This document shows, in pieces, positions 2,518-15,869 of a stretch of 64,000 bases of DNA (positions within the stretch are counted from its first letter, which is position 1; the number at the start of each line of letters is the position of its first letter). The DNA comes from Roseicella sp. DB1501 (GTDB lineage Bacteria > Pseudomonadota > Alphaproteobacteria > Acetobacterales > Acetobacteraceae), in contig NZ_JABFHG010000001.1 of assembly GCF_013112485.1 (NCBI RefSeq), forward strand, positions 310,001-374,000, in the 5' to 3' direction. The notes beneath the pieces were generated by a model. It was given only the letters and a program-made list of their open reading frames with translations. It was not told where the DNA came from and did not search any database. The translations under genes and the position numbers were made by a program.

Positions 2518-3434
2518 GCCGGTACTGGCAGGAGGGCGGGCGCCGCGGCGGGGGCGTAGCGGCGGACCATCGCGGCGCAGAACTCCGCGAACTCCTCCGG
2601 CACCAGGGGCGGACTGGTGTGGTGCGGCGCGAGGCCGCGATGCTCCGGCGTGAAGCAGAAGGTCACGGTGACGTCGAACCCGGCCAGCGCCGCCATCTGC
2701 CGGTCGAACCAGTCCAGCGCGTTGGGTCGGAAGCTGTCGGCCCAGGACAGGCCGGTGCGGAGATAGGTGACGCCGAGCCGCTTCATCCAGGCCACGGCTT
2801 CGTCCAGCCGGTGGTCCTCGAAGTGGAACCACTGGCACAGCCCCATGGCGGGCGCATGCCGGGCGAAGCGCTCCAGCGCCGGCTTCGGTGTGCCGTCCTC
2901 GCGCAGCAGCCCCATGTAGAAGTGGCGGTAGTAGGAGGAGCCCTCCGCTTCCCTGTGCCGCGTGGTGGCGCCCCAGGCTTGCGGCAGGTCGTAGAGGCTG
3001 TACCAGTGGATGCGCGGCGCCTGGCCCAGCAGCAGCTCGGCCGTGCGGTCCACGCCCCAGGCCTGCACCTCCTCGGCGCCGAAGGAGGAGACGCCGACCT
3101 CCGAGACCCAGATCGGCTTCTCCGTCACCGAGCGGATCTCGGCGATCTTGGCCGGCCATTCCTGGATCTGCCAAAGGTTCCAGTCGAGCGGGAAGCCGTG
3201 CACCGCAACCGCGTCCACCGCCTCCAGCACGCCGCGCTCGGCCATGTTCACGATGAAGGCGGGATCGATGGGGGAGATGCCGCCCAGCACGCGCGGCAGC
3301 GCCGGATTCGCCGCGCGGATCGCCTGCCCCGCCGCCCTGGCCGTCTCCGCGAACAGCGCCCAGCCCGGATCGAGTTCAGGGTCCCAGTGGGACTTGTTGT
3401 TGGGCTCGTTCCAGATCATCGCGGCCTCGATCAC
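2514..3434 (-). CDS. Clan GH-A glycosidase-like protein with apparently circularly permuted TIM barrel
   Basis: A 306-aa protein similar to beta-xylosidase (GH39-like) enzymes. The acid/base motif WNEPN is at residues 8-12 (E10) and a nucleophile-type segment PIWVSEVG is at 107-114 (E112), giving both clan GH-A carboxylates. In ordinary family members the barrel strands before WNEPN contain a G-V-x-W/Y-x-R segment, an FTP segment and an EFA-x-F-x-x-x-V-x-RY helix. Here these occur after the nucleophile: GVTYLRTGLSW (221-231), CFTPEH (260-265) and EEFAEFCAAMVRRYA (280-294). The order reads strands 4-8 then 1-3. The GTG start overlaps the methyltransferase stop (GTGA), so no hidden N-terminal half fits upstream. 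Function in the cluster could be hydrolysis or transglycosylation of a xyloside-type glycan. Confidence 0.75.
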   Translation of the reverse strand: MIEAAMIWNEPNNKSHWDPELDPGWALFAETARAAGQAIRAANPALPRVLGGISPIDPAFIVNMAERGVLEAVDAVAVHGFPLDWNLWQIQEWPAKIAEIRSVTEKPIWVSEVGVSSFGAEEVQAWGVDRTAELLLGQAPRIHWYSLYDLPQAWGATTRHREAEGSSYYRHFYMGLLREDGTPKPALERFARHAPAMGLCQWFHFEDHRLDEAVAWMKRLGVTYLRTGLSWADSFRPNALDWFDRQMAALAGFDVTVTFCFTPEHRGLAPHHTSPPLVPEEFAEFCAAMVRRYAPAAAPALLPVPA

Positions 3435-4201
3435 CGGCGCGCCTCCTTCGCGGGATAGACCGCGGCCGCGCCCCAAGGGGCCGCGGCGCGGCGGCAGAGA
3501 TAGACCTCCTCCTCCGGGCGGGAGAGGATGGCGAAGCCGGCCGAGCGCAGCATCGCCGCCGAGCAGGCGGCGTTCGGCACCCACCAGTTGGACGGGTCGT
3601 GCGCGTAGCGATGCTCGACGAAATGCAGCTTCGGATAGCCCGGCGCGTCGAACACCGCCGTCTCGGCGAAGCCGTAATCCTCGGCGACCGGCGCCGGCTC
3701 CTTCGCGCCGCGCTGCATGGACTGGAACAGCAGCAGGTCCCCGGCCACGTGTTCGTGGATCAGGTCCAGCGCCAGCAGCGGGTGGCGCAGGTGGTAGAGC
3801 ACGCCCATGAACAGCACGAGGTCGAAGCGCTCGCCGAGCGCGGCGACGTCGTAGACATCCAGCCGGCGGAACTCGATCTCCAGCCCCGTCACCTCGGCTG
3901 CGAAGCGGGCCTGGGCGAGGTAGCGCTCGTCGCTGTCGATGCCGACCACGCGCGCCGCCCCGCGCCGCTTCATCTCCAGCGCGTAGAAGCCGCCGTTGCA
4001 GCCGATATCGAGCACGCTGCGCCCGGACAGGTCGGCCGGGATGGCATGGGCGAAATGCCGGAACTTGTTCGCCGGGTAGTCGTAGAGGAAATGGTCCGGG
4101 GCGGTGCGCACGCCGCCGAGGTCGAGGTTGTGGAACCACGCGCCCAGCGCCTCGGCGCGCCGCCGGACCTCCTCGGCCGGCCGGTTGATGGCGTGCCTCA
4201 T
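3431..4201 (-). CDS. SAM-dependent methyltransferase, CmoB-like (TIGR04290-type)
   Basis: Class I methyltransferase of 256 aa with motif I VLDIGCNGGFYALEM near residues 64-78, an acidic motif II (GIDSDERYL) and a post-motif segment FDLVLFMGVLYHLRHPLLAL. These features are typical of CmoB/tRNA-mo5U methyltransferase relatives. An N-terminal segment with HNLDLGG and a Y-P-A-N-K-F motif precedes the domain. From memory it matches a family (TIGR04290, named after a Ramlibacter locus) that travels with glycosyltransferase cassettes. Neighbours on both sides overlap by 4 bases, so it likely methylates a sugar or glycan intermediate rather than tRNA. Start ATG at 4201 overlaps the upstream stop. Confidence 0.85.
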   Translation of the reverse strand: MRHAINRPAEEVRRRAEALGAWFHNLDLGGVRTAPDHFLYDYPANKFRHFAHAIPADLSGRSVLDIGCNGGFYALEMKRRGAARVVGIDSDERYLAQARFAAEVTGLEIEFRRLDVYDVAALGERFDLVLFMGVLYHLRHPLLALDLIHEHVAGDLLLFQSMQRGAKEPAPVAEDYGFAETAVFDAPGYPKLHFVEHRYAHDPSNWWVPNAACSAAMLRSAGFAILSRPEEEVYLCRRAAAPWGAAAVYPAKEARR

Positions 4202-5322
4202 GGGGCACCCTCCGTCGCTGCATGGAACGATGGCGCTGCGCCCAGCCGCGCCAGGATCGCCAGCAGCTCCGCCGCCCGATGCGCGCAGCTGTGGCGGGCG
4301 CGGATCGTCTCCAGCCCGCTCGTCGCCAGGGCGCGCCGCAGCGCCGGATCCGCGCGCAGCGCCTGGAGATGGCGCGTCATCGCCGCCTCGTCGGCCGCGG
4401 CCAGATAGTCCTGCCCGGTGCGGAACAGCCCCTCGCTGTCCTGCCAAGGCGCGCTGACCAGCGGGATGCCGCAGGCCAGCGCCTCGAACACCCGGATGGT
4501 CGGGATGCCCGGCAGCAGCCGCACATAGAAGCGGCGCGGCACATGCACGGTGGCGAGGTGCCGCGCGAAGACCTCCGGCGCGCGGGCGTTCGGCAGCCAG
4601 CCGCGGTAGCGCGCGCCGTGCCGCGCCAGCAGGGCCAGCGCCTCCTCCGGGTAGCGCACGCCGTGGATGTCGAGCGGCAGGCCGGCGGCCCGGGCGGGAC
4701 GCAGGAGGAAGGCCTCCAGCTCCTCCGTGCGCTCGCCATCGCCCCAATTGCCGATCCAGACCAGGCCCTCGCGCGGCCCCTCCTGCGCCGGCGGGCGGAA
4801 GAGCCGGGTATCCGCCGCCTCGTGCCAGACGAAGACGCGGCCGCCCCAGCCCCAGCGGCGATAGACCTCGGCCAGCGTCGCGCCGAAGGCCAGCACGCCG
4901 TCATAGCCCTCGAGGTCGAACTGCCGGATAGCCTCCGGCTCGCTGACGGCGCGGTGGTGGGTGTCGTGGAACAGCAGGGTGAAGCGGCCGCCGCGCCGGC
5001 GCGCGCGGCCGAGGGCGGCGACCAGCGCCGGGTCGTTCCATTCATGGACGATGACGGCATCGGCCCCCTCCAGCGCCGCCTCGGCCGCCACCGCCCCGCG
5101 GAAGGCGCGCGACGCCAGCGTTGGATAGGCGGCGCGGAAGGCCTCGAGCCCCGCCTCGCCGTGGTCGCGCAGCAGGTTCTCCAGGCTCCAGGCGCCCTCC
5201 GGCTCCATCGCCAGGACATCATGGCCGCGATGCGCCAGCTCGCGCAGCACGCCGCGCAGGAAATGCGCGTTGCCGTGATTCCAGCAGGAGGCGAGGGAAT
5301 GGGTGAAGTAGACGAGTCTCAC
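4198..5322 (-). CDS. CgeB-like glycosyltransferase
   Basis: A GT-B type protein of 374 aa. The N-terminus (SCWNHGNAHFLRGVLRELA, then RGHDV) follows the same pattern as two other proteins in this window (10795-11889 and 11886-12995), so the three appear to be paralogues. The C-terminal half has a nucleotide-sugar binding-type region with FEALACGIPLVSAPW near 303-317, characteristic of CgeB/DUF3880 and GT4-like enzymes. It is cytoplasmic with no signal peptide. The GTG start overlaps the stop of the upstream GT4 gene. Donor and acceptor cannot be read from sequence. Confidence 0.8.
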   Translation of the reverse strand: MRLVYFTHSLASCWNHGNAHFLRGVLRELAHRGHDVLAMEPEGAWSLENLLRDHGEAGLEAFRAAYPTLASRAFRGAVAAEAALEGADAVIVHEWNDPALVAALGRARRRGGRFTLLFHDTHHRAVSEPEAIRQFDLEGYDGVLAFGATLAEVYRRWGWGGRVFVWHEAADTRLFRPPAQEGPREGLVWIGNWGDGERTEELEAFLLRPARAAGLPLDIHGVRYPEEALALLARHGARYRGWLPNARAPEVFARHLATVHVPRRFYVRLLPGIPTIRVFEALACGIPLVSAPWQDSEGLFRTGQDYLAAADEAAMTRHLQALRADPALRRALATSGLETIRARHSCAHRAAELLAILARLGAAPSFHAATEGAP

Positions 5323-6455
5323 GCGAAGGCGGCCTCCCTGCGCGGCCCGGAGCGGGCCAGCAGCGGCTGGATGATGCCGAGCATGCCGGCCGCCATGGCA
5401 TCGGCGCTGTAGCGGCGGGCGCGCTCGCGGGCCAGGGCGCCCATCCGGGCGCTCGCCGCCGGATCGTCCAGCAGATGGGCGAGGGCCTCGGCGGCGCGGC
5501 CCGCCTCCGTCGCCGGCACCAGGAGGGCCGCGCCCTCCCACAGCTCGCGGAAGCTCGGGATGTCGGCGAGCACCAGGGCGCAGCCGGCCTGCGCCGCTTC
5601 CAGCACCGCGAGGCCGAAGGGCTCGTAACGCGCGAGCGAGACGAAGACCGGCGCGGCGCCCATCCAGGCCGACAGCGCCGTCGCGTCGAGCCGGCCGAGC
5701 GGCCGGACATGGCGCGGCGCCGCCTCGGACCCTTCCGGCCCGCGCAGCGGCCCCGCCGCCAGAACCGGCCAGGAAAGGCGCGCCGCCGCCCGGTCGAGGG
5801 TGTCGAGGTTCTTGCCGGCATCCCAGAGCCGGCCGGCGGTCAGGGCGAAGCGCGCCGGCGCCCCGGCGGGTGGCGCCGCCGGCCTGGACGGCGGCCGGCC
5901 GTTCCGCACCACCGCGGGCGGTCGCGCCAGGCCGTAGCACCGGGCCGTGGCCTCGGCGAAGGCGTGGCTCGGCGCGGTCAGCGCGTCGGCGGCGGCGTAG
6001 CCCTGCCGCAGCAGCGCCGTGCGCCAGGTGAAATCCGCCGGCAGCGGCCCGCCCCGCACGGCCTCCCACCAGGTCGCCAGGCAGGAATGGCAGGTGGCGA
6101 CCACGGGGCAGCCGAAGCCGCCCGCCTGCCCGGCCGCCAGGGCCGGGCTGTTCAGATGCAGCAGGTCTACCCCCTCCGCCCGGGCCAGCGCGGCGAGGGC
6201 GGCGCCGGCGGCGAAGACGGCCTCCGGCTTCGTTGCCAGCCAGTCGAGCGGCAATCCGGTCTGCCGCAAGCTCAGCCCGGGCACCGCCGCGGCCTGCGCC
6301 TGCTGGTCGGCGGCAGGCGGCGGACCGAGCACCGCGAGCGCCGTCGTCACGCCGAGCGGCGCCAGGGCGCCGGCCAGGTCGAGCGCATAGGTCCAGACAC
6401 CGCCGACCGCATCGGCCGTCATGAGCAGGCGCATGGGCGCGATGCCGGGCTTCAC
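5319..6455 (-). CDS. Glycosyltransferase family 4 protein
   Basis: GT-B retaining glycosyltransferase (378 aa). The N-terminal domain begins TADAVGGVWTYALDLAGAL, the donor-side domain has TAGRLWDAGKN near 227-237, and the E-x7-E element appears as EPFGLAVLEA, all GT4 hallmarks. A GTG start at 6455 is given; an internal ATG at 6434 (MRLLMTADAVGG) is a strong alternative because it places the Rossmann strand right at the N-terminus. It lies 10 bases downstream of the epimerase gene and overlaps the next glycosyltransferase start by 4 bases. It presumably adds one residue in the assembly of the cluster's glycan. Confidence 0.85.
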   Translation of the reverse strand: MKPGIAPMRLLMTADAVGGVWTYALDLAGALAPLGVTTALAVLGPPPAADQQAQAAAVPGLSLRQTGLPLDWLATKPEAVFAAGAALAALARAEGVDLLHLNSPALAAGQAGGFGCPVVATCHSCLATWWEAVRGGPLPADFTWRTALLRQGYAAADALTAPSHAFAEATARCYGLARPPAVVRNGRPPSRPAAPPAGAPARFALTAGRLWDAGKNLDTLDRAAARLSWPVLAAGPLRGPEGSEAAPRHVRPLGRLDATALSAWMGAAPVFVSLARYEPFGLAVLEAAQAGCALVLADIPSFRELWEGAALLVPATEAGRAAEALAHLLDDPAASARMGALARERARRYSADAMAAGMLGIIQPLLARSGPRREAAFA

Positions 6456-6465
6456 GTCGGCACGC

Positions 6466-7584
6466 TCACGACAAGGCGCCGGCCGCCATCTCCGCCTGCG
6501 GCGATGCGGCGATCGGCCCGTCCGGCGCCTGGCGCAGCCAGCCGGCCAGGGCGGCGAGCCCCTCCCGCCAGGGGCGCGGCGCGGCCAGGCCGAGCGCCTG
6601 CGTGGCGCGGCGCGTGTCGGAGACGTAGTAGCGCTGGTCGCCCGCCCGCCAGTCGGCGTAGCGGGTCTCCACCGGCCGGCCGGTCAGCGCGCCGATGGCG
6701 CCGAGCACCTGGCGCAGGCTGACGGCGTTGTCCGGCCCGCCGCCGAGGTTGAAGGCCTGCCCCCTCACGGCGTCGATCCTCCGCCAGGCAGCGAGATAGG
6801 CGTCCACCGCATCGCCCACATCCAGCACGTCGCGCACCTGGCAGCCGTCGCCGTAGATGCTGACCGGCTCGCCGCGCAGGGCGCGGATCAGGAAATGCGC
6901 CACCCAGCCCTGGTCCTCGGTGCCCATCTGGCGCTGGCCGTAGATGCAGCTCATGCGCAGCACCGCGGTGGGCAGGCCGAAGGAGCGGCTGAAATCCAGC
7001 ACGTACTGGTCGGCCGCGCCCTTGGAGCAGCCATAGGGCGTGTGGAAGTCGAGCGGCCGATCCTCGCCGATGCCACGCGCGCGGACCGACGGGTCACGCG
7101 GCAGGTAGGCATCGCCCAGGCGGTCGAGGGCGACGTCGGCGAGGTCGCCATAGACCTTGTTGGTGCTGGCGAAGATCAGCGGCACCGCCTCGCCGCGGCG
7201 GCGCAGCGCATCGAGCAGGTGGAAGGTGGCGCGCAGGTTGATGTCGAAATCCGCGGCGGGCTCGGCCATGCTGGTCGTCACCGCCACCTGCGCGGCGAGG
7301 TGGAAGACCGCGCTGGCCTCGCCCGCCGCCGCCGCCAGCGTCTCCGCCTCCCGGATATCGGCGATGACGGCGGTGACGCGCTGCGGGTGGCGGCGGCGCA
7401 GCCAGTCGAGGTTGGCGGCCACGCCCGGCCGCAGCAGCGCGTCGTAGACCAGCACGTCGTGCCCCGCCGCCGCGAGCCGGTCGGCGAGGTTGGAGCCGAT
7501 GAAGCCGGCGCCGCCGGTGACCAGGACCGGCCCGGCCGCGGCGCCCCGCAGGGCCGGAGCGGCGAGCGGCGTGCCGAGGCTCAC
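6466..7584 (-). CDS. NAD-dependent sugar-nucleotide epimerase, CDP-paratose/tyvelose 2-epimerase-like
   Basis: Extended short-chain dehydrogenase of 372 aa. The nucleotide motif TGGAGFIGSN lies near residues 18-27 and the catalytic Y-x3-K is in YGCSKGAADQYVLDF. That segment, plus the later DQGWVAHF, closely resembles CDP-paratose 2-epimerases (RfbE type) rather than GalE. The GTG start overlaps the stop of a second epimerase gene (GTGA). It likely makes an epimerised nucleotide sugar that feeds the glycosyltransferases downstream. No CDP-glucose or other dideoxy-sugar genes are in the window, so the true substrate may differ. Confidence 0.82.
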   Translation of the reverse strand: MSLGTPLAAPALRGAAAGPVLVTGGAGFIGSNLADRLAAAGHDVLVYDALLRPGVAANLDWLRRRHPQRVTAVIADIREAETLAAAAGEASAVFHLAAQVAVTTSMAEPAADFDINLRATFHLLDALRRRGEAVPLIFASTNKVYGDLADVALDRLGDAYLPRDPSVRARGIGEDRPLDFHTPYGCSKGAADQYVLDFSRSFGLPTAVLRMSCIYGQRQMGTEDQGWVAHFLIRALRGEPVSIYGDGCQVRDVLDVGDAVDAYLAAWRRIDAVRGQAFNLGGGPDNAVSLRQVLGAIGALTGRPVETRYADWRAGDQRYYVSDTRRATQALGLAAPRPWREGLAALAGWLRQAPDGPIAASPQAEMAAGALS

Positions 7585-8696
7585 GCGACGAGGCCCCGCA
7601 GCTCCAGTTCGCTGCGTGCCTGATGCACGCGGTCGCGCGATTGCTGTCGGGCCACCCATTCGGCCAGCTCCGCCAGGTCGGCGCGGAAGTCGCCGTGCCG
7701 CGCCGCGTAGCCGAGGCGCTCGCGGGCGCGGGTGATGTCGGGGATGTTGTGGCGGATGTCGCCGGCCCGCGCCTTGCCGGAGATCTCCGGCCGCAGCTCC
7801 GGCCGCCCCATGGCGGCGGCGAGCTCGAGCGCCACCTCCTCCACGGTGCGGTCCACGCCGCTGCCGATGTTGAAGACCTCGCCCGCCGCCTCCGGCCGGT
7901 CGAGCGCGAGGAGGAAGGCCTGCGCCACGTCCTCCACATGCACGAAGTCGCGGCGCTGGCGGCCATCCTCGAAGATCATCGGCGGCTGGCCGTTCTGCAG
8001 GCGCGCCGCGAAGATGGCCAGCACGCCGGTATAGGGGTTCGACAGCGCCTGACCGGCGCCGTAGACATTCCACAGCCGCAGCGCCACGCCCTCCCTGCCG
8101 TAGGCCGGCGCGAGGGTCAGAGTCAGCCGCTCCTGCGTGAACTTGGTGATGGCGTAGACCGAGGCGAGGCTCGGCCGCTTCCATTCCGGCGTCGGCACCG
8201 GCACCAATGGCCGGCCATGCGCGTCCAGCGGGTCCCAGGACGCGTCCGGGCCGGGGCGCGGCACGCGCACCGCATCCTCCACCAGCGCGCCCTCGGCGTC
8301 GCGGTACAGCCCCTCGCCGTAGATGCTCATGGAGGAGGCGACGACGACCCGGCGCACCGGGCTCTCGATCATCTGCTGGTACAGCACCGCCGTGCCGTGG
8401 TCGTTGACCGAGACGTAGCGGTCCACCGCATACATGCTCTGCCCGACGCCGACCTCCGCCGCCAGGTGCACTACCTTGTCCGCGCCCTGCAACGCGCGGC
8501 GCACCGCCTCCGGATCACGCACATCGCCGGTGACGATCTCGACATCCGCGTCCAGCCCATCCGCGCCGCGGTCGGCATGCACCTGCTCGATGAAGCTGTC
8601 GAGCACGCGCACATGGTCGCCGCGCGCGAGCAGGGCACGCGAGAGATGCCGGCCGATGAAGCCCGCACCGCCGGTGATCAGAATGGTCTCTGCCAA
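7581..8696 (-). CDS. NAD-dependent sugar-nucleotide epimerase, dTDP-L-rhamnose 4-epimerase (WbiB)-like
   Basis: Extended SDR of 371 aa. It has the TGGAGFIGRH nucleotide motif near the N-terminus, the S/T in SSMSIYGEG, and catalytic Y-x3-K in SVYAITKFTQERL. The segment NVYGAGQALSNPYTGV followed by an EDG-R-RDFVHV element resembles dTDP-L-rhamnose 4-epimerase and related C4 epimerases. The TTG at 8696 was chosen because GGAG lies about 8 bases upstream and the next codons lead straight into the first beta strand; an upstream in-frame start at 8756 would add residues not typical of the family. It is the first gene of the minus-strand operon. Confidence 0.78.
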   Translation of the reverse strand: MAETILITGGAGFIGRHLSRALLARGDHVRVLDSFIEQVHADRGADGLDADVEIVTGDVRDPEAVRRALQGADKVVHLAAEVGVGQSMYAVDRYVSVNDHGTAVLYQQMIESPVRRVVVASSMSIYGEGLYRDAEGALVEDAVRVPRPGPDASWDPLDAHGRPLVPVPTPEWKRPSLASVYAITKFTQERLTLTLAPAYGREGVALRLWNVYGAGQALSNPYTGVLAIFAARLQNGQPPMIFEDGRQRRDFVHVEDVAQAFLLALDRPEAAGEVFNIGSGVDRTVEEVALELAAAMGRPELRPEISGKARAGDIRHNIPDITRARERLGYAARHGDFRADLAELAEWVARQQSRDRVHQARSELELRGLVA

Positions 8697-9055
8697 AGCG
8701 GAGGCTCCGTTATGCTGCCAATCGTCCGGGCTGCAGGAGGTGCTGCCGACCGACACGCCACAGCGTACGCGCGCGGGGCGGATCGGTTGCGCGTCTGGAT
8801 TTGCCTGCCCGGATCGCGCATCGCGGCTTCGAAGCTTCTCATTGTCGCAGCAGGCTTTGAAGTAGCGCGGCCTGCGAAGCGGATCGCGCCGCGTTCACGT
8901 TGCGTTGTGTCGCAACATCGAGGTGCTGGTATGTCAGTTGTGCCGCGCGGCGCTCGGGAACTATGTTGCTGTCAGGCTGTTTCGCCTGCCGGCACGGGGG
9001 AGTGTCATGATGGGGATGAGGGCATGATTGCGGAACGTCATGCTGCAGCAACGGG
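8697..9055. promoter_or_regulatory. Divergent promoter region between the two sugar operons
   Basis: This roughly 360-base gap separates the first genes of the minus and plus operons, so both promoters must lie here or close by. It is visibly less GC-rich than its surroundings. A small inverted repeat GTTGCG-TTGTGT-CGCAAC sits at 8899-8916 and a second, CAGGC-TGTTTC-GCCTG, lies near 8973-8988. Either could be an operator. No clear sigma-70 pair could be assigned by eye. Confidence 0.5.
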
Positions 9056-10177
9056 ATGTTCAGCGTGCCCCTGCTGCGTCTTCCTCGGGACGGCGGCGTG
9101 AGCCGCAGAAAAGTTCGTGTCGCCTTGGTCGGCGTCGGCAACTGCGCGTCTTCCTTCGTGCAGGGACTCACGCATTACGCTGATGCTGCCGCCAACGAGC
9201 CCGTGCCCGGCCTGATGAATGTCGAACTGGGCGGCTACCATGTCAGCGACATCGAACTCGCCGCTGCCTTCGACGTGAACGCCTCGAAGGTCGGCTGTGA
9301 CCTGTCCGAGGCGATCCTCGCCGAGCCGAACAACACCCAGGTCTTCGCCGAGGTGCCGCGCAGCGGCGTCATCGTGCAGCGCGGCCCGACGCTGGACGGC
9401 ATCGGCCGCTATCTGAGCAACCGGGTCACCGAATCGGACGCGCCCATCGTCGATGTCGCGGCGGCGCTGGAGCGTTCGCGCGCCGATGTCCTCGTCTCCT
9501 ACCTGCCGGTCGGATCGCAACGCGCCTCCGAATGGTATGCGGAGCAGGCGCTGAAGGCCGGCTGTGCCTATGTGAACTGCATCCCGGTCTTTCTCGCCTC
9601 CAGCCCGGACTGGCACGCGCGCTTCGAGACGCGCGGCCTGCCCATCATCGGCGACGACATCAAGAGCCAGGTCGGCGCCACCATCATCCACCGCGTGCTG
9701 GCCAACCTGTTCCGCGAGCGCGGCGTGCGGCTCGACCGGACCTACCAGCTCAATTTCGGTGGCAACGCCGATTTCCTCAACATGCTGGAGCGCGAGCGGC
9801 TGGAATCGAAGAAGCTGTCCAAGACCCGGGCAGTGACCAGCGAGCTCGACGTGCCGCTGCCTGCCGAGGACGTGCATATCGGCCCGAGCGACCACGTGCC
9901 CTGGCTGGCCGATCGCAAATGGGCGCAGATCCGGCTGGAGGGCACGGGCTTCGGCGGCCTGCCGCTGAATGTCGAGCTGAAGCTGGAGGTCTGGGATTCG
10001 CCCAACTCCGCCGGCGTCGTCATCGATGCCGTCCGCTGCGCCAAGCTGGCGCTGGACCGCGGCATTGGCGGCGCGCTGGTCGGGCCGTCCAGCTACTTCA
10101 TGAAGTCGCCGCCGCAGCAATTCCACGACGGCGAGGCGCGTGAGCGGACACTGCGCTTCGTGGCGGGCGAGGGGTGA
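9056..10177 (+). CDS. ino1: Inositol-3-phosphate synthase
   Basis: The enzyme converts glucose 6-phosphate to 1L-myo-inositol 3-phosphate with NAD in the cytoplasm. The 373-aa protein has the NAD-binding segment [16 protein letters not shown] near residues 22-37, the [16 protein letters not shown] active-site stretch, and the [11 protein letters not shown] segment, all diagnostic of the short bacterial/archaeal inositol synthase type. The start at ATG 9056 gives a slightly long N-terminus; a GTG at 9101 just before [11 protein letters not shown] is also plausible. It opens the plus-strand operon and is followed 9 bases later by a phosphatase, so the cluster can make free or activated inositol. 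Confidence 0.9.
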
Positions 10178-10186
10178 GGCGCGACC

Positions 10187-10798
10187 TTGGCCGCCACCGT
10201 CTTCCTGGTCCGCCACGCCGTGCATGACCGGGTGGACCATATCCTGTGCGGCCGCATGCCCGGCGTGCGGCTGGGCGAGGCGGGGCGCGCCCAGGCCGCG
10301 GCGCTCGCCGCGCGGCTGGCGACGCAGCGGATCGGGGCAGTCCATGCCAGCCCGCTGGAGCGGGCGCAGGAGACAGCGGCGCCGCTCGCCGCGCGGCTCG
10401 GCCTGCCGCTCCGCACCGAGGCCGCCTTCGCCGAGATCGATGTCGGCGAATGGACCGGCGTCGCCTTCGTTGCCCTGGCGGCGGACCCGCGCTGGCGGCG
10501 CTGGAACGAGGCACGCGGAACGGCGCGCGCGCCGGGCGGGGAAAGCATGGCCGAGGTGCAGGCGCGCGCCGTAGCGGGCATCGAGGATCTGCGGCGCGCA
10601 ATTCCGGACGGGCGCGTCGCCGTTGTCAGCCATGCCGACGTGATCAAGGCGGCGTTGGCCGCCTTCCTGGGCCTCTCCCTCGATGACATCTGGCGGTTCG
10701 AGATCGCCCCCGCCTCCGTCAGCGCGCTGGCGGTCTGGCCGGGGGGCGGCAAGGTGCTCGGTCTGAACGCGTGCGGCACAGAGGCGGTGACGGCATGA
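10187..10798 (+). CDS. Histidine phosphatase (phosphoglycerate mutase-like) family protein
   Basis: A 203-aa phosphatase of the RHG superfamily. The catalytic motif is LVRHAVHD at residues 7-14 (His phospho-acceptor), with arginine and acid residues in ASPLERAQET and the second histidine in VVSHADVIK. A TTG start at 10187 follows a GGGTGAGG ribosome-binding stretch. The stop overlaps the next gene's ATG. Because it directly follows inositol-3-phosphate synthase, dephosphorylation of inositol phosphate or of a sugar phosphate is a reasonable guess, though family members have very varied substrates. Confidence 0.85.
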   Translation: MAATVFLVRHAVHDRVDHILCGRMPGVRLGEAGRAQAAALAARLATQRIGAVHASPLERAQETAAPLAARLGLPLRTEAAFAEIDVGEWTGVAFVALAADPRWRRWNEARGTARAPGGESMAEVQARAVAGIEDLRRAIPDGRVAVVSHADVIKAALAAFLGLSLDDIWRFEIAPASVSALAVWPGGGKVLGLNACGTEAVTA

Positions 10799-11889
10799 GG
10801 ATCGCTTTCTACGGATCGAGCCTGCTGTCCTCCTACTGGAATGGCGCGGCCACCTATTATCGCGGCCTGCTGCGCGACCTTGCCGGCCGCGGCCATGCGA
10901 TCACTTTCTACGAGCCCGACGCCTTCGACCGGCAGCAGCACCGCGACATGGAGCCGCCGGATTGGGCCGAGGTGCGCGTCTACCCGGCGCGCGAGGAGGC
11001 GATGCGCGCGGTGGCCGAGGAGGCGACGCGGGCCGATGTGGTGGTGAAGGCCAGCGGCGTCGGCGTCTTCGACGAAGCGTTGCTGGAGGGCGTCATGGCC
11101 CGGGCACGGCCGGAGGCGGTGCGGATCTTCTGGGATGTCGACGCGCCGGCGACGCTGGCGGAGATCCGGGACGAGCCGGGGCATCCGCTGCGCCGCGCCC
11201 TGCCCTCGCTCGATCTGGTGCTGACCTATGGCGGCGGCCCGCCGGTGATCGCGGCCTATGAGGCGCTCGGCGCCCGGCGCTGCATTCCCATCTACAACGC
11301 CCTGGATCCGGAGACGCACCACCCCGTGCCGGCCGACCGGCGCTTCGCCGCCGACCTCTCCTTCCTCGGCAACCGTCTGCCGGACCGCGAGGCGCGGGTG
11401 GAGCGATTCTTCCTCGATGCCGCCGCGCGTCTGCCGGAGCGGTCCTTCCTGATCGGCGGCAATGGCTGGCAGGACAAGGCGATGCCGCCCAACGTCCGCC
11501 ATATCGGCCATGTCTACACGCGTGACCACAATGCCTTCAACACGTCGCCGCTCGCGGTGCTGAACATTGCGCGCGACAGCATGGCGAGCACCGGCTACTC
11601 GCCGGCGACGCGGGTCTTCGAGGCGGCAGGGGCCGGCGCCTGCCTTATCACCGATGCCTGGATCGGGCTGGAGCTGTTCCTCAAGGAGGGCGAGGAGGTG
11701 CTCGTCGCCCGCGACGGCGCCGAGGTCGCGGCGCATCTGCGGTCGCTGACCCCGGAGCGGGCGCGGACGATCGGCCAGGCCGCGCGCGCCCGCATCCTGG
11801 ACGGGCACACCTATGCCCGGCGCGGCGCCGAGGTGGATGCGCTGCTGCGCCGCGAACGGGCGCGCCGCCTGCAGGGCAGCGCAGCGTGA
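10795..11889 (+). CDS. CgeB-like glycosyltransferase
   Basis: A 364-aa GT-B type protein. The N-terminal YGSSLLSSYWNGAATYYRG and RGHAITFYEPD resemble the CgeB/DUF3880 N-terminal domain. The middle has a YNALDPETH strand-loop. The C-terminal donor region contains STGYSPATRVFEAAGAGA near 256-273, the conserved glycine-rich part used for nucleotide-sugar binding. ATG 10795 overlaps the phosphatase stop (ATGA) and its own stop overlaps the next paralogue (GTGA), so translation is coupled across all three genes. It is cytoplasmic with no membrane segment. Confidence 0.82.
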   Translation: MRIAFYGSSLLSSYWNGAATYYRGLLRDLAGRGHAITFYEPDAFDRQQHRDMEPPDWAEVRVYPAREEAMRAVAEEATRADVVVKASGVGVFDEALLEGVMARARPEAVRIFWDVDAPATLAEIRDEPGHPLRRALPSLDLVLTYGGGPPVIAAYEALGARRCIPIYNALDPETHHPVPADRRFAADLSFLGNRLPDREARVERFFLDAAARLPERSFLIGGNGWQDKAMPPNVRHIGHVYTRDHNAFNTSPLAVLNIARDSMASTGYSPATRVFEAAGAGACLITDAWIGLELFLKEGEEVLVARDGAEVAAHLRSLTPERARTIGQAARARILDGHTYARRGAEVDALLRRERARRLQGSAA

Positions 11890-12995
11890 CGGGCCCGCCG
11901 CTGCGCTTGGTGGTGCTGGGGCTGAGCCTGTCCTCCTCCTGGGGCAACGGCCATGCCACCACCTACCGCGCCCTGCTGCGCGCCTTCGCCGGGCGCGGGC
12001 ACGAGGTGCTGTTCCTGGAGCGCGACATGCCCTGGTACGCCGCGCAGCGCGACCTCCCTGCCCCCGGTTTCTGCCGCCTGGCGCTGTATCCAGACCTCGC
12101 GGCGCTGGCAGGCTGGCGCGAGGTCATCGCCGCGGCGGATGCGGTGATCGTCGGCTCCTACGTCCCCGAGGGCGTGGTGGTCGGCCGGCTGGTGCAGGAC
12201 TGGGCGCGCGGCGTGACCGCCTTCTACGACATCGACACGCCGGTGACGCTCGGCAAGCTGCGGCGTGGCGACGAGGAGTACCTCTCGCCCGCGCTGATCC
12301 CGGGCTACGACCTGTATCTCTCCTTCACCGGCGGCCCGGTTCTGCGGCGGCTCGAGACGGAGTACGGTTCCCCCGCCGCGCGGCAGCTCTACTGCTCCGT
12401 CGACGTCGAGGCCTATCAGCCGCTGGACCTGCCGCCGCGCTGGGATCTCAGCTATCTCGGCACCTACAGCCCCGACCGCCAGCCGGTGCTGGAGCGGCTG
12501 CTGCTGGAGCCGGCGCGACGCGCCCCCGAATTGCGCTTCGTGGTGGCCGGGCCGCAATACCCGACCGACATTGTTTGGCCCGCAAATGTCGAGCGGCTGG
12601 AGCATGTCCCACCGGCCGGCCATGCCGCCTTCTACGCGCAGAGCCGCTTCACCCTAAACGTCACCCGCGCCGACATGGTCGAGGCGGGCTACAGCCCCAG
12701 CGTGCGGCTGTTCGAGGCGGGGGCCTGCGGCGTGCCGATCATCTCCGATATCTGGGATGGCATCGGGACGCTGCTGGCGCCCGGCAAGGAGATCGTGCTG
12801 GCCGACACGCCCGCAGCGGTGCTCGATGCCCTGCTCGGCCTGCCGGAGCCGCGCCGGCTGGCGATGGCCCGCGCGCTGCGCGCCCGCGTTCTGGCGGAGC
12901 ACACCGCCGAGCATCGGGCCGCGTCGTTGGAGACGTATCTCCGGTCCGTGTCCACCCTTCCCTCCCTCCCCGCTGACGCACAGGTGGTCCGTTGA
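11886..12995 (+). CDS. CgeB-like glycosyltransferase
   Basis: A 369-aa paralogue of the preceding gene. The N-terminus reads LGLSLSSSWGNGHATTYR with RGHEVLFLERD, and the donor site region is MVEAGYSPSVRLFEAGACG. GTG 11886 overlaps the upstream stop and the TGA overlaps a downstream TTG start. Two neighbouring CgeB-like genes plus a third on the other strand suggest that a glycan with at least three to four sugars is built, each by a dedicated enzyme. The family was named after a Bacillus spore-crust protein and is now treated as glycosyltransferases. Confidence 0.82.
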   Translation: MTGPPLRLVVLGLSLSSSWGNGHATTYRALLRAFAGRGHEVLFLERDMPWYAAQRDLPAPGFCRLALYPDLAALAGWREVIAAADAVIVGSYVPEGVVVGRLVQDWARGVTAFYDIDTPVTLGKLRRGDEEYLSPALIPGYDLYLSFTGGPVLRRLETEYGSPAARQLYCSVDVEAYQPLDLPPRWDLSYLGTYSPDRQPVLERLLLEPARRAPELRFVVAGPQYPTDIVWPANVERLEHVPPAGHAAFYAQSRFTLNVTRADMVEAGYSPSVRLFEAGACGVPIISDIWDGIGTLLAPGKEIVLADTPAAVLDALLGLPEPRRLAMARALRARVLAEHTAEHRAASLETYLRSVSTLPSLPADAQVVR

Positions 12996-14008
12996 AGAAC
13001 GGCAAGGCAAGACTCGCCATCGTCGCCGGCGGCGCCGGCTTCCTCGGCTCGCATCTCTGCGACGCGCTTCTCGCCTCGGGGCTGGAGGTCGTCTGCCTGG
13101 ACGATCTCAGCACGGGGCGGCGGGAGAACCTGCGGCATCTCGAGGCGAGACCCGGCTTCCGCTTCGTCGAGGCCAATATCGCGGCGCCGCTGCCCGAGGC
13201 GGTGTCGAGGATGCGAAAGCACCCAGACGCGATCTTCAACCTCGCCTGCGCCGCCTCGCCGCCGCACTACCAGGCGGATCCCGAGCACACCATGCTCACC
13301 TGCGTCATGGGCACGCGCAACCTGCTGCGTCTGGCCGAGGAAACGGGAGCGCGCTTCCTCCAGGCCTCCACCAGCGAGGTCTACGGCGATCCCGACGTCC
13401 ATCCGCAGCGGGAGGACTACTGGGGCCATGTCAACCCGACAGGGCCCCGCGCCTGCTACGACGAGGGCAAGCGCGCGGCGGAAGCGCTGATCTTCGACTT
13501 CCGCCGCGCCCGCCGTGCCGATGTCCGGGTGGCGCGCATCTTCAACACCTATGGGCCGCGCATGCGCGCGGATGACGGGCGGGTGGTGTCCAACGTGATC
13601 TGTCAGGCGCTGGCAGGAGAGGACATCACGGTCTATGGCGATGGCAGCCAGACGCGCTCCTTCTGCTATGTGGACGACCTGGTGGACGGGCTGGCACGGC
13701 TGATGGCCTGCGACACCGATCCTGAGGGCGCGGTCAATCTCGGCAATCCGGTGGAGCTGACCGTGGCCGATCTGGTGACGCGGGTGCTGGCCCTGACCGG
13801 GGCCCGCTCCCGCATCCTGCGACTGCCGCTGCCGACGGACGACCCGCGTCGTCGCCGCCCCGATATCGACCGGGCGCAGGCGCTGCTGGGCTGGCACCCG
13901 CGCGTGCCGCTGGAGGAGGGGCTGCGGGCGACGGTCGCCTGGTTCCGCCGCGAGATTGCGCCGGCGCTGCGCAGCCGGCCGGCGCCACTGGACCTGGAGA
14001 CGGGCTGA
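12992..14008 (+). CDS. UDP-glucuronate decarboxylase (UDP-xylose synthase)-like SDR
   Basis: Extended SDR of 338 aa. It has the nucleotide motif AGGAGFLGSHL near residues 12-22, the CLDDLSTGRRENL segment, TSEVYGDP, and the catalytic Y-x3-K in ACYDEGKRAAE. The last motif is typical of UXS enzymes, which oxidise and decarboxylate UDP-glucuronate to UDP-xylose. The C-terminal RRRPDIDRAQALLGW is also typical. The TTG start at 12992 overlaps the upstream stop (TTGA). A UDP-xylose supply fits with the GH39-like xylosidase homologue in the opposite operon. Confidence 0.88.
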   Translation: MKNGKARLAIVAGGAGFLGSHLCDALLASGLEVVCLDDLSTGRRENLRHLEARPGFRFVEANIAAPLPEAVSRMRKHPDAIFNLACAASPPHYQADPEHTMLTCVMGTRNLLRLAEETGARFLQASTSEVYGDPDVHPQREDYWGHVNPTGPRACYDEGKRAAEALIFDFRRARRADVRVARIFNTYGPRMRADDGRVVSNVICQALAGEDITVYGDGSQTRSFCYVDDLVDGLARLMACDTDPEGAVNLGNPVELTVADLVTRVLALTGARSRILRLPLPTDDPRRRRPDIDRAQALLGWHPRVPLEEGLRATVAWFRREIAPALRSRPAPLDLETG

Positions 14009-14078: not shown

Positions 14079-15869
14079 ATGCTGCTTTACGGCGATACGA
14101 CGCGGCTGGAGGCGACACACCCCAAGCGTATGGCGATGGCCAGGGCGCTGCGGCAGGCTTGGTCCCGGCCGTCGGGGCTGGCCCGCCACACGGCGTTGGT
14201 CGGCGCGCTGATCGAGGCAGGGGAACTGGCCCAGGGAGTCGCAGACGCCGCCTTCGCTGCGGAGGGGCACGATGCCCTTGCCCCGTCCGAGACGGCCATC
14301 ATGGCGCTGCTGCTGCGCCTCGCCGGCGCGGTGCGCGCCTCCTGGGAAAGCGGCTTCCTGCAACTGGCGTCCTGGCCGGCGGCGGAGCTGGCAACGGTCC
14401 TGGCCAGCGCCTTGCCGGAGGCCATCCACACCCGGCAGGCAGAGGGCTTCGCCTTCTATGCCCTGTATCCCGAAGCCTATCTGAATGCCGCCGCCGCCCT
14501 GCCGGCGGAGCCGAGGCGGGTTCGCGTCATCGGCCTGCGCAGCATTGGCACCGTGCTGGCGCCGATGGTCGCGGCGGCGCTCGGCACCGCGGCGTGCTGG
14601 ACGTTGCGACCGACCGGCCATCCCTTTCAGCGGAGGCTCGACCTGGCGCCGGCACTGCGCGCCGCCATCCTCGCCGACCCCGCCGCCCGCTTCGCCCTGG
14701 TGGATGAAGGGCCGGGCCTGTCCGGCAGCAGCTTCGCGGCGGGGCTCGACCTGCTGGAGGGCACAGGCATCCCCGCGGCGCGCATTCATTTGCTGCCCGG
14801 CCATGCGGGGCCGCCCGGCGGCCAGGCGAGCCCGACGCTGCGCGCGCGCTGGCCAGGCCTGCAGCGGCACCCGGCACGGTTCGATGACCTGCTGCACTCG
14901 CCCCGCGCCGAGCATCGGCTGGGCCGCTGGGCCGCGGATCTCCTCGGCGTGGCGGAGGCGCCGCTGCAGGATCTCTCCGGCGGCGCCTGGCGGGCGGCGC
15001 GTGGCCTGCCGCACGCCCAATGGCCGCCCATTCATCCCTATATGGAGCGCCGGAAATTCCTGCTGCGCGCCGAGGGCGGGAGCTGGCGACTGAAATTCGC
15101 CGGGCTGGGCCGGGCCGCGACGGCGCGGCTGCGCCGCGCCCAGCTTCTGCACGTCGCGGGCTTCACGCCCGAGCCGGTGGGCCTCTGCCACGGCTTCCTG
15201 GTCGAGCGGCATATCGAGGACGCGGTTCTTCCGGTGCCCGCCGCCTTGCCGCGGGACCGGCTGGTGGAACGGCTGGGCCGGTATCTCGGCTTTCGCGCGC
15301 GGCATTTTCCCGCCCCGGCCGCGGCGGGCGCCTCGCTCGACAGCCTTTGGCAGATGGCGCGCCACAACGCCTCCATGGTTCTGGGCGAGGCGGAGGCCCG
15401 CCCCCTCGACGCGCTGCGCCCGGCCATCCCCGGGCTGGAACGCCAGCGTCGCCCGGTCTGGACCGACAACCGCATGCATGTCTGGGAATGGTTGCTGCGC
15501 CCGGGAGGCGGCCTGCTGAAGACCGACGCGCTGGACCACGCGGACGCGCATGACCTCGTCGGCTGCCAGGACATCGCCTGGGACATCGTCGGCGCCCGCG
15601 TCGAATGGTCGCTCTCGCCAGCGGAGGCGGAGAGCCTCCGCGCGATCGTCGCGCAGGAGGCCGGCGTTGCGCCCCTGCCGGTCTTGATCGCGTTCCTGAC
15701 GCCCTGCTACCTGGCTTTTCAAATGGGCTACTACAGCATGGCGGCTGATGCGTCAGTCTGTCCACAAGACAAGGCACGCGCCGCCGCCGCCGCTCATTGC
15801 TACGAAGCCAGGCTGCGCAGCGTTCTGTCCTCCAGTCTTTGCGCCACGGCGCTTTGGTACCCTGCTTAG
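14079..15869 (+). CDS. Uncharacterised protein with phosphoribosyltransferase-like and kinase-like regions
   Basis: I do not recognise this 596-aa protein as a named family. Residues about 148-235 contain VRVIGLRSIGTVLAP and ALVDEGPGLSGSSF, resembling the hydrophobic strand and PRPP-binding loop (acidic pair, then G-x-S/T-G-x-S/T) of phosphoribosyltransferases. Residues about 327-345 (FLLRAEGGSWRLKFAGLGR) and 461-510 (TDNRMHVWEWL, then CQDIAWDIVGA) resemble the ATP-lysine strand and catalytic loops of aminoglycoside-phosphotransferase-type kinases. The N-terminal 140 residues are helical and alanine-rich. It lies 70 bases after the UXS gene on the same strand, so it may be the last gene of the cluster, but it could have its own promoter. 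Domain assignments are by eye. Confidence 0.6.
   Translation: MLLYGDTTRLEATHPKRMAMARALRQAWSRPSGLARHTALVGALIEAGELAQGVADAAFAAEGHDALAPSETAIMALLLRLAGAVRASWESGFLQLASWPAAELATVLASALPEAIHTRQAEGFAFYALYPEAYLNAAAALPAEPRRVRVIGLRSIGTVLAPMVAAALGTAACWTLRPTGHPFQRRLDLAPALRAAILADPAARFALVDEGPGLSGSSFAAGLDLLEGTGIPAARIHLLPGHAGPPGGQASPTLRARWPGLQRHPARFDDLLHSPRAEHRLGRWAADLLGVAEAPLQDLSGGAWRAARGLPHAQWPPIHPYMERRKFLLRAEGGSWRLKFAGLGRAATARLRRAQLLHVAGFTPEPVGLCHGFLVERHIEDAVLPVPAALPRDRLVERLGRYLGFRARHFPAPAAAGASLDSLWQMARHNASMVLGEAEARPLDALRPAIPGLERQRRPVWTDNRMHVWEWLLRPGGGLLKTDALDHADAHDLVGCQDIAWDIVGARVEWSLSPAEAESLRAIVAQEAGVAPLPVLIAFLTPCYLAFQMGYYSMAADASVCPQDKARAAAAAHCYEARLRSVLSSSLCATALWYPA

Follow-up and report, generated by a model that had tools for sequence, protein, structure and literature searches.

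The DNA analyzed here, a 64,000-nucleotide stretch of the Roseicella sp. DB1501 genome (the window), contains some 14 genes that form a conserved cluster, among them four glycosyltransferases and two epimerases, arranged in two divergent runs. The plus-strand run encodes inositol-3-phosphate synthase (positions 9056 to 10177), a histidine phosphatase (10187 to 10798), two glycosyltransferases of the Glyco_trans_1_2 type (a, 10771 to 11889, which served as the cluster marker, and b, 11886 to 12995) and, judged by homology, an SDR resembling UDP-glucuronate decarboxylase, i.e., UDP-xylose synthase-like (12992 to 14008). It ends with a gene for a 596-residue protein (14079 to 15869), termed PRTK for PRTase-kinase. 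The minus-strand run extends from two NAD-dependent epimerases/dehydratases (b, 7581 to 8756, given as the longest reading frame, whose true start may be internal, and a, 6520 to 7530) through a GT4-type glycosyltransferase (5343 to 6422), glycosyltransferase c (4234 to 5322), a TIGR04290-family methyltransferase (3443 to 4174), a protein elsewhere annotated as a beta-xylosidase or glycosyl hydrolase (2556 to 3434) and a zinc-binding dehydrogenase (1558 to 2514) to a Gfo/Idh/MocA oxidoreductase (509 to 1552). The extents of epimerase a, the GT4-type enzyme, glycosyltransferase c, the methyltransferase and the zinc-binding dehydrogenase are those of tblastn matches, with the Roseomonas copy in the case of epimerase a and the methyltransferase.

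The gene upstream of PRTK is an NAD-dependent epimerase/dehydratase whose best single NCBIfam score is to dTDP-glucose 4,6-dehydratase, below the model cut-off; a homologue appears in public records as "UDP-glucuronic acid decarboxylase," so that the earlier note's placing of PRTK behind a UDP-xylose synthase gene is reasonable. The Gfo/Idh/MocA homologue of Sinorhizobium meliloti scores best as an inositol 2-dehydrogenase, also below cut-off. A shuffled set of the same genes surrounds PRTK in Roseomonas, Azospirillum brasilense, Ensifer adhaerens, S. meliloti and many further genomes, and certain clusters add genes for TIGR04295 (B12_rSAM_oligo), a polysaccharide pyruvyl transferase or an F420-dehydrogenase-like protein. 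TIGR04295, a B12-binding radical SAM family labeled "oligo," is present in part of the clusters (L013 at 5722 to 7050, L048, L072, L074 and L092); no mention of it or of TIGR04290 was found in the open literature. An extra glycosyltransferase and/or sugar nucleotidyltransferase occurs in L048 (13843 to 14553), L055 (13719 to 14429), L071 (1 to 765) and L093 (3422 to 4231), and from such genes the product of the cluster probably varies between lineages.

PRTK is a genuine open reading frame: its ATG start lines up with the MLVYGD start of its homologues, and it has the third-position GC bias typical of coding genes. No second full copy was found in its own genome. Searches with the sequence alone retrieved neither a PRTase nor a kinase family, yielding no Pfam or NCBIfam model at an E of ≤1, no PDB chain at an E of ≤10 and a single PHROG match (E of 0.56), and a profile of 17 homologues likewise found no chain in the PDB. 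The earlier note knew of no named family holding both parts of the protein, and these searches agree: PRTK is a domain pairing without a named family, each half of which belongs to a known fold. No description of the protein or of its domain pairing was found in the openly accessible literature searched.

The 28 homologues aligned with the window protein (29 sequences in all) come from Acetobacteraceae, Azospirillum and Rhizobiales and are 36 to 56% identical to it. Because the mean column identity of this alignment is only about 51%, the invariance of key residues described below is far above chance. Full-length relatives were detected by tblastn on plasmids of Roseomonas, Azospirillum, Sinorhizobium, Rhizobium, Ensifer and Ciceribacter, where they are annotated as hypothetical proteins or no gene is listed, and whole-genome searches added relatives from Acetobacteraceae and other alphaproteobacteria. 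S. meliloti 1021 carries its homologue on pSymB, at about 253.4 to 255.1 kb.

The first half of the protein, residues 1 to 300 (14079 to 14978; this and all further PRTK coordinates are on the plus strand), is predicted to comprise an N-terminal helical region and a type I phosphoribosyltransferase (PRTase)-like domain. AlphaFold2, run with an 18-sequence alignment, modeled the whole protein with a pLDDT of 90.6 and a pTM of 0.90, and residues 1 to 300 alone with values of 90.3 and 0.90. In a Foldseek comparison of residues 1 to 300 with the PDB, the first 17 matches were all PRTases (uracil, adenine, xanthine-guanine and orotate PRTases) at probabilities of 0.92 to 1.00, with the best E value at 1.5e-3 and none below. 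The consistency of these matches, together with the invariant loops, indicates that the model of this region contains the Rossmann-like core of a PRTase.

The candidate PRPP-binding loop, D209 to S218 (DEGPGLSGSS; 14703 to 14732), lies in the motif VDEGPGLSGSS, and D209, E210 and each residue from G211 to S218 are invariant in all 29 sequences. It follows the usual pattern of four hydrophobic residues, two acidic residues and T/S-G-x-T/S, with one extra residue: relative to D[DE]xxxTGxT it is longer by one, the addition falling before the SG. A second invariant segment (29/29), R154-S155-I156-G157 (14538 to 14549), is a candidate pyrophosphate-binding loop by analogy with PRTase anatomy, and E122, R177, P178 and G180 are also identical in the 29 sequences. 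Thus, residues ~110 to 290 resemble type I PRTases in predicted fold, in the D-E...SGSS loop and in the candidate pyrophosphate loop but differ from them in the extra loop residue, the long N-terminal helical region, the fused kinase, the lack of a match at the sequence level and a setting in a glycan cluster instead of a nucleotide pathway.

The remainder of PRTK, residues ~296 to 596 (14964 to 15866), is predicted to adopt the choline kinase/aminoglycoside phosphotransferase (APH) fold. With the whole model as the query, Foldseek matched the choline kinase LicA (PDB 4r7b) at an E of 3e-7 and a probability of 1.00, and further matches, again to small-molecule kinases, included a Mesorhizobium choline/ethanolamine kinase, APH(9)-Ia, macrolide 2'-phosphotransferase, human choline kinase and NahK. 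Two choline-kinase-like proteins encoded in other genomes also gave weak matches to the PRTK profile (E of 6.7e-5 and 6.1e-4 per genome), which supports the assignment independently. A candidate ATP-binding lysine, K339 (15093 to 15095), lies on a strand of the AlphaFold2 model (residues 334 to 340) and is lysine in 27 and arginine in 2 of the 29 sequences. D463 to E470 (15465 to 15488) form the putative catalytic loop, in which both named residues are conserved in 28 of 28 sequences, and D483 to H487 (15525 to 15539) are, by conservation, a candidate metal-binding segment. D463, E470, K481, D483, D486, H487 and D502 are invariant in all 28 sequences that extend over these positions.

Features shared with the LicA/APH superfamily are therefore the predicted fold and the candidate ATP lysine, catalytic aspartate and metal aspartate; unlike that superfamily, PRTK lacks the HxD histidine, the Brenner asparagine and a Pfam match, and a long inserted segment separates the first two strands of its N lobe, as placed from the modeled strands. 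Its loop, TDNRLHxWEWL, has no histidine at position -2 and no asparagine at D+5, and so departs from the HxDxxxxN arrangement; judged from the sequence, the invariant E470 at D+7 may stand in for the missing asparagine. Pfam models of APH and choline kinases matched neither the window protein nor the 17 members scanned. The two missing residues, along with the ability of choline kinase folds to bind small polar acceptors, would suit a protein in which activity is confined to the PRTase domain, with a pseudokinase-like C-terminal domain serving in acceptor binding or structure. Decayed active sites usually drift, however, and the candidate lysine, aspartate, glutamate and metal aspartate are invariant or nearly so across divergent homologues, which makes an inactive kinase quite unlikely.

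Most of what the earlier note read from the letters is borne out by these comparisons. The motifs that it quoted are present and conserved in the alignment; the resemblance to a PRPP-binding loop is upheld by the invariant motif and the PRTase fold predicted for residues 1 to 300; and fold searches, which it had proposed for each part and which were run on residues 1 to 300 and on the whole model, point to both a PRTase core and a kinase fold. The residues that it singled out for conservation (D209, E210, S215 and D463) are invariant wherever they are covered. Its likening of the second half to a small-molecule kinase stands for the fold, K339 and D463, and falls short at the unorthodox catalytic loop.

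Several known systems invite comparison. In the BtrL/BtrP-type O-ribosylation of butirosin and ribostamycin biosynthesis, an aminocyclitol glycoside is ribosylated with PRPP and then dephosphorylated; PRTK is likened to it, by description only, through its proposed PRPP-dependent ribosylation, and no aminotransferase was recognized among the genes of its cluster. PRTase_2 proteins (PF15609) of tellurite and stress clusters carry a TRSP-type C terminus. They share with PRTK the PRTase fold and a matching pattern of conserved loops, and a profile-profile alignment paired the PRPP loops and the pyrophosphate-loop regions of the two (E of 3.5e-4 for a single comparison, probability of 37%), as would be expected if PRTK belonged to a Ter-type system making a nucleoside-like metabolite. 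PRTK differs in its PRPP loop, where four residues, as against three in the aligned PRTase_2 loop, separate the acidic pair from the SG, and in its gene context. It has no TRSP domain, its neighbors are glycan biosynthesis rather than ter genes, and PF15609 matches neither the protein nor its genome, so that membership in PRTase_2 was rejected and a role in a Ter-type system is highly improbable. A precedent for PRPP-dependent glycan ribosylation comes from the gPRT-PRP enzymes, which are cytoplasmic, have two domains and ribosylate bacterial polysaccharides with PRPP (PMC11127046). The logic proposed for PRTK is similar, except that its second domain is kinase-like and not a HAD phosphatase. 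No gPRT structure occurred among the 50 Foldseek matches listed for residues 1 to 300, where canonical PRTases appear instead; with no HAD phosphatase, PRTK is not a member of the gPRT-PRP group, and its predicted PRTase fold appears to be of the canonical type.

The two-domain architecture is constant, with both domains present in every homologue for which the DNA is complete; one homologue (L014) is interrupted by Ns. Profiles of the N- and C-terminal domains found no stand-alone form of either one. An apparent two-gene form (L046, genome G088) was discounted, as frameshifts there break PRTK and two neighbors, three cluster genes in all, probably through sequencing error or decay. A seemingly separate kinase paralogue on the opposite strand (L015, genome G219, contig 589) repeats the sequence of the gene beside it, and this inverted partial duplicate of the 3' part of PRTK looks like an assembly artifact. 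A viral origin was likewise set aside, in that searches of phages and of viral contigs yielded no relatives and the best BFVD matches, to choline/ethanolamine kinases, concern one half only; so was a role as a defense system, for which PADLOC returned one weak match (RNaseH_pPIWI_RE, E of 1.3e-3) in one member.

PRTK co-occurs strongly with the gene cluster. In a single fixed draw of 398 genomes from the phylum, with the cluster scored by its marker glycosyltransferase at an E of ≤1e-100, PRTK was present in 8 genomes and the cluster in 14, and every genome with PRTK also had the cluster (P = 2e-13, Fisher exact test, with related genomes counted as independent). A direct test of 19 genomes showed both in 18, and the remaining one is a 76%-complete assembly. 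PRTK lies inside or linked to the cluster at most loci; in Azospirillum ramasamyi and A. lipoferum the two are on different plasmids, and in two further genomes (G112 and G673) on different contigs, so that the link holds in trans. Clusters without PRTK occur in Paracoccus, Rhizobium and Bradyrhizobium, on the replicons examined, and N- and C-domain profiles found no unfused PRTase and kinase genes standing in for PRTK there. Since 6 of the 14 cluster genomes lack it, PRTK is dispensable for the core product and is an accessory step of the pathway.

Clusters without PRTK also bear on the histidine phosphatase, which was considered as a dedicated partner of PRTK that would remove a ribose 5-phosphate. 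It tracks instead with inositol synthase: Paracoccus keeps both genes with no PRTK nearby. As a separate observation, histidine phosphatase and inositol-3-phosphate synthase occur together in the PRTK-less clusters L066, L067 and L091. Because it is paired with inositol synthase where PRTK is lacking, the enzyme is more likely an inositol-phosphate phosphatase.

A phosphopentomutase gene lies inside three PRTK-less Bradyrhizobium-type clusters (L070, 15949 to 17151; L071, 2470 to 3672; L093, 5930 to 7132), scoring above the NCBIfam equivalog cut-offs in both copies scanned; it is absent from every stretch that holds PRTK and from the remaining PRTK-less clusters. Its presence hints at a ribose phosphate in the pathway, while other clusters have neither gene. 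Such a gene would accord with a scheme in which the two PRTK domains jointly produce or modify an activated form of ribose to supply the glycosyltransferases; the kinase might, for instance, form a ribose bisphosphate or an analogue of PRPP that then moves to the PRTase-fold site. The scheme also draws on the folds themselves, given that APH-fold enzymes include sugar-1-kinases (NahK being among the fold matches) and 5-methylthioribose kinase, and that PRPP synthetases share the PRTase fold. Against this, PRTK lacks the PRPP synthetase signature and the other PRTK-less clusters lack a phosphopentomutase, and we consider the scheme improbable.

The cluster appears to be regulated by stress. An EcfG-type promoter motif, GGAAC-N17-GTT (8957 to 8981, plus strand), lies 75 nt before the inositol-3-phosphate synthase reading frame, although it is not rare on its own in the 64-kb window (1 found versus 1.35 expected). 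Over 31 loci, the 200 nt upstream of the gene contain GGAAC-N16/17-GTT for 26 of 108 operon-first genes as opposed to 2 of 241 internal genes, against a background expectation of about 1.4 in 108, with related loci and shared divergent regions counted as independent. Cluster operons with such motifs are those of L011, L022 to L026, L048, L052 to L055, L066, L068, L069 and the window. DUF1003 and other stress-type genes neighbor cluster loci, which, with the motif enrichment, fits control of the cluster by EcfG/RpoE2.

Stress regulation, and the standing of PRTK as an accessory gene that may lie apart from the cluster, would also be compatible with a division of labor in which a single domain is catalytic: the kinase would phosphorylate one of the pathway's inositols or sugars, with the PRTase domain as a sensor of PRPP or ppGpp, or as a scaffold. 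PRTase folds do serve as PRPP/ppGpp sensors, as in PurR repressors, and Bacillus subtilis PurR bound to ppGpp is among the fold matches, at ranks 45 and 50. The top-ranking matches are catalytic enzymes, however, and the PRPP loop and R154-S155-I156-G157 are fully invariant and PRTase-like, so that we judge a sensory or scaffolding domain unlikely.

PRTK probably finishes or activates the product of the sugar-and-inositol cluster. The reading that we prefer, at a probability of roughly 0.42, is that it is a bifunctional enzyme, combining phosphoribosyl transfer from PRPP with a kinase activity, in the oligosaccharide/cyclitol pathway specified by the cluster. The protein, probably cytoplasmic, would bind PRPP through its DEGPGLSGSS loop and attach ribosyl-5-phosphate to a hydroxyl group on an acceptor that the cluster produces, either an inositol derivative or a xylose-containing oligosaccharide; the kinase domain, with ATP and using K339, D463, E470 and D483, would phosphorylate this acceptor molecule as well, or else its precursor, and the 5-phosphate might later be removed by the histidine phosphatase. 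The predicted folds, the invariant key residues, the constant architecture and the co-occurrence with the cluster argue for this bifunctional reading, and from them we infer the activity of both sites, the acceptor and the order of the steps. The weak E values of the N-terminal Foldseek matches (best, 1.5e-3) and the missing HxD histidine and Brenner asparagine argue against it. The suggestion in the earlier note that the protein adds an activated ribosyl or phosphate group in the same pathway as UDP-xylose synthase is sustained insofar as PRTK co-occurs with the cluster, and the transfer of either group belongs to the model.

A more specific version, in which a PRPP-dependent ribosyltransferase/kinase decorates an inositol- and xylose-containing oligosaccharide within the alphaproteobacterial EcfG general stress response, is doubtful at present; if true, the makers of such an oligosaccharide would include nodulating rhizobia, Azospirillum and Roseomonas. 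PRTK marks a cluster with over a dozen genes, and one homologue resides in a genetic model, S. meliloti 1021. If the bifunctional reading is true, the protein would represent another, independent route by which ribose from PRPP enters glycans, and it would aid the identification of a stress-linked glycan, surface-bound or soluble, in plant-associated bacteria.
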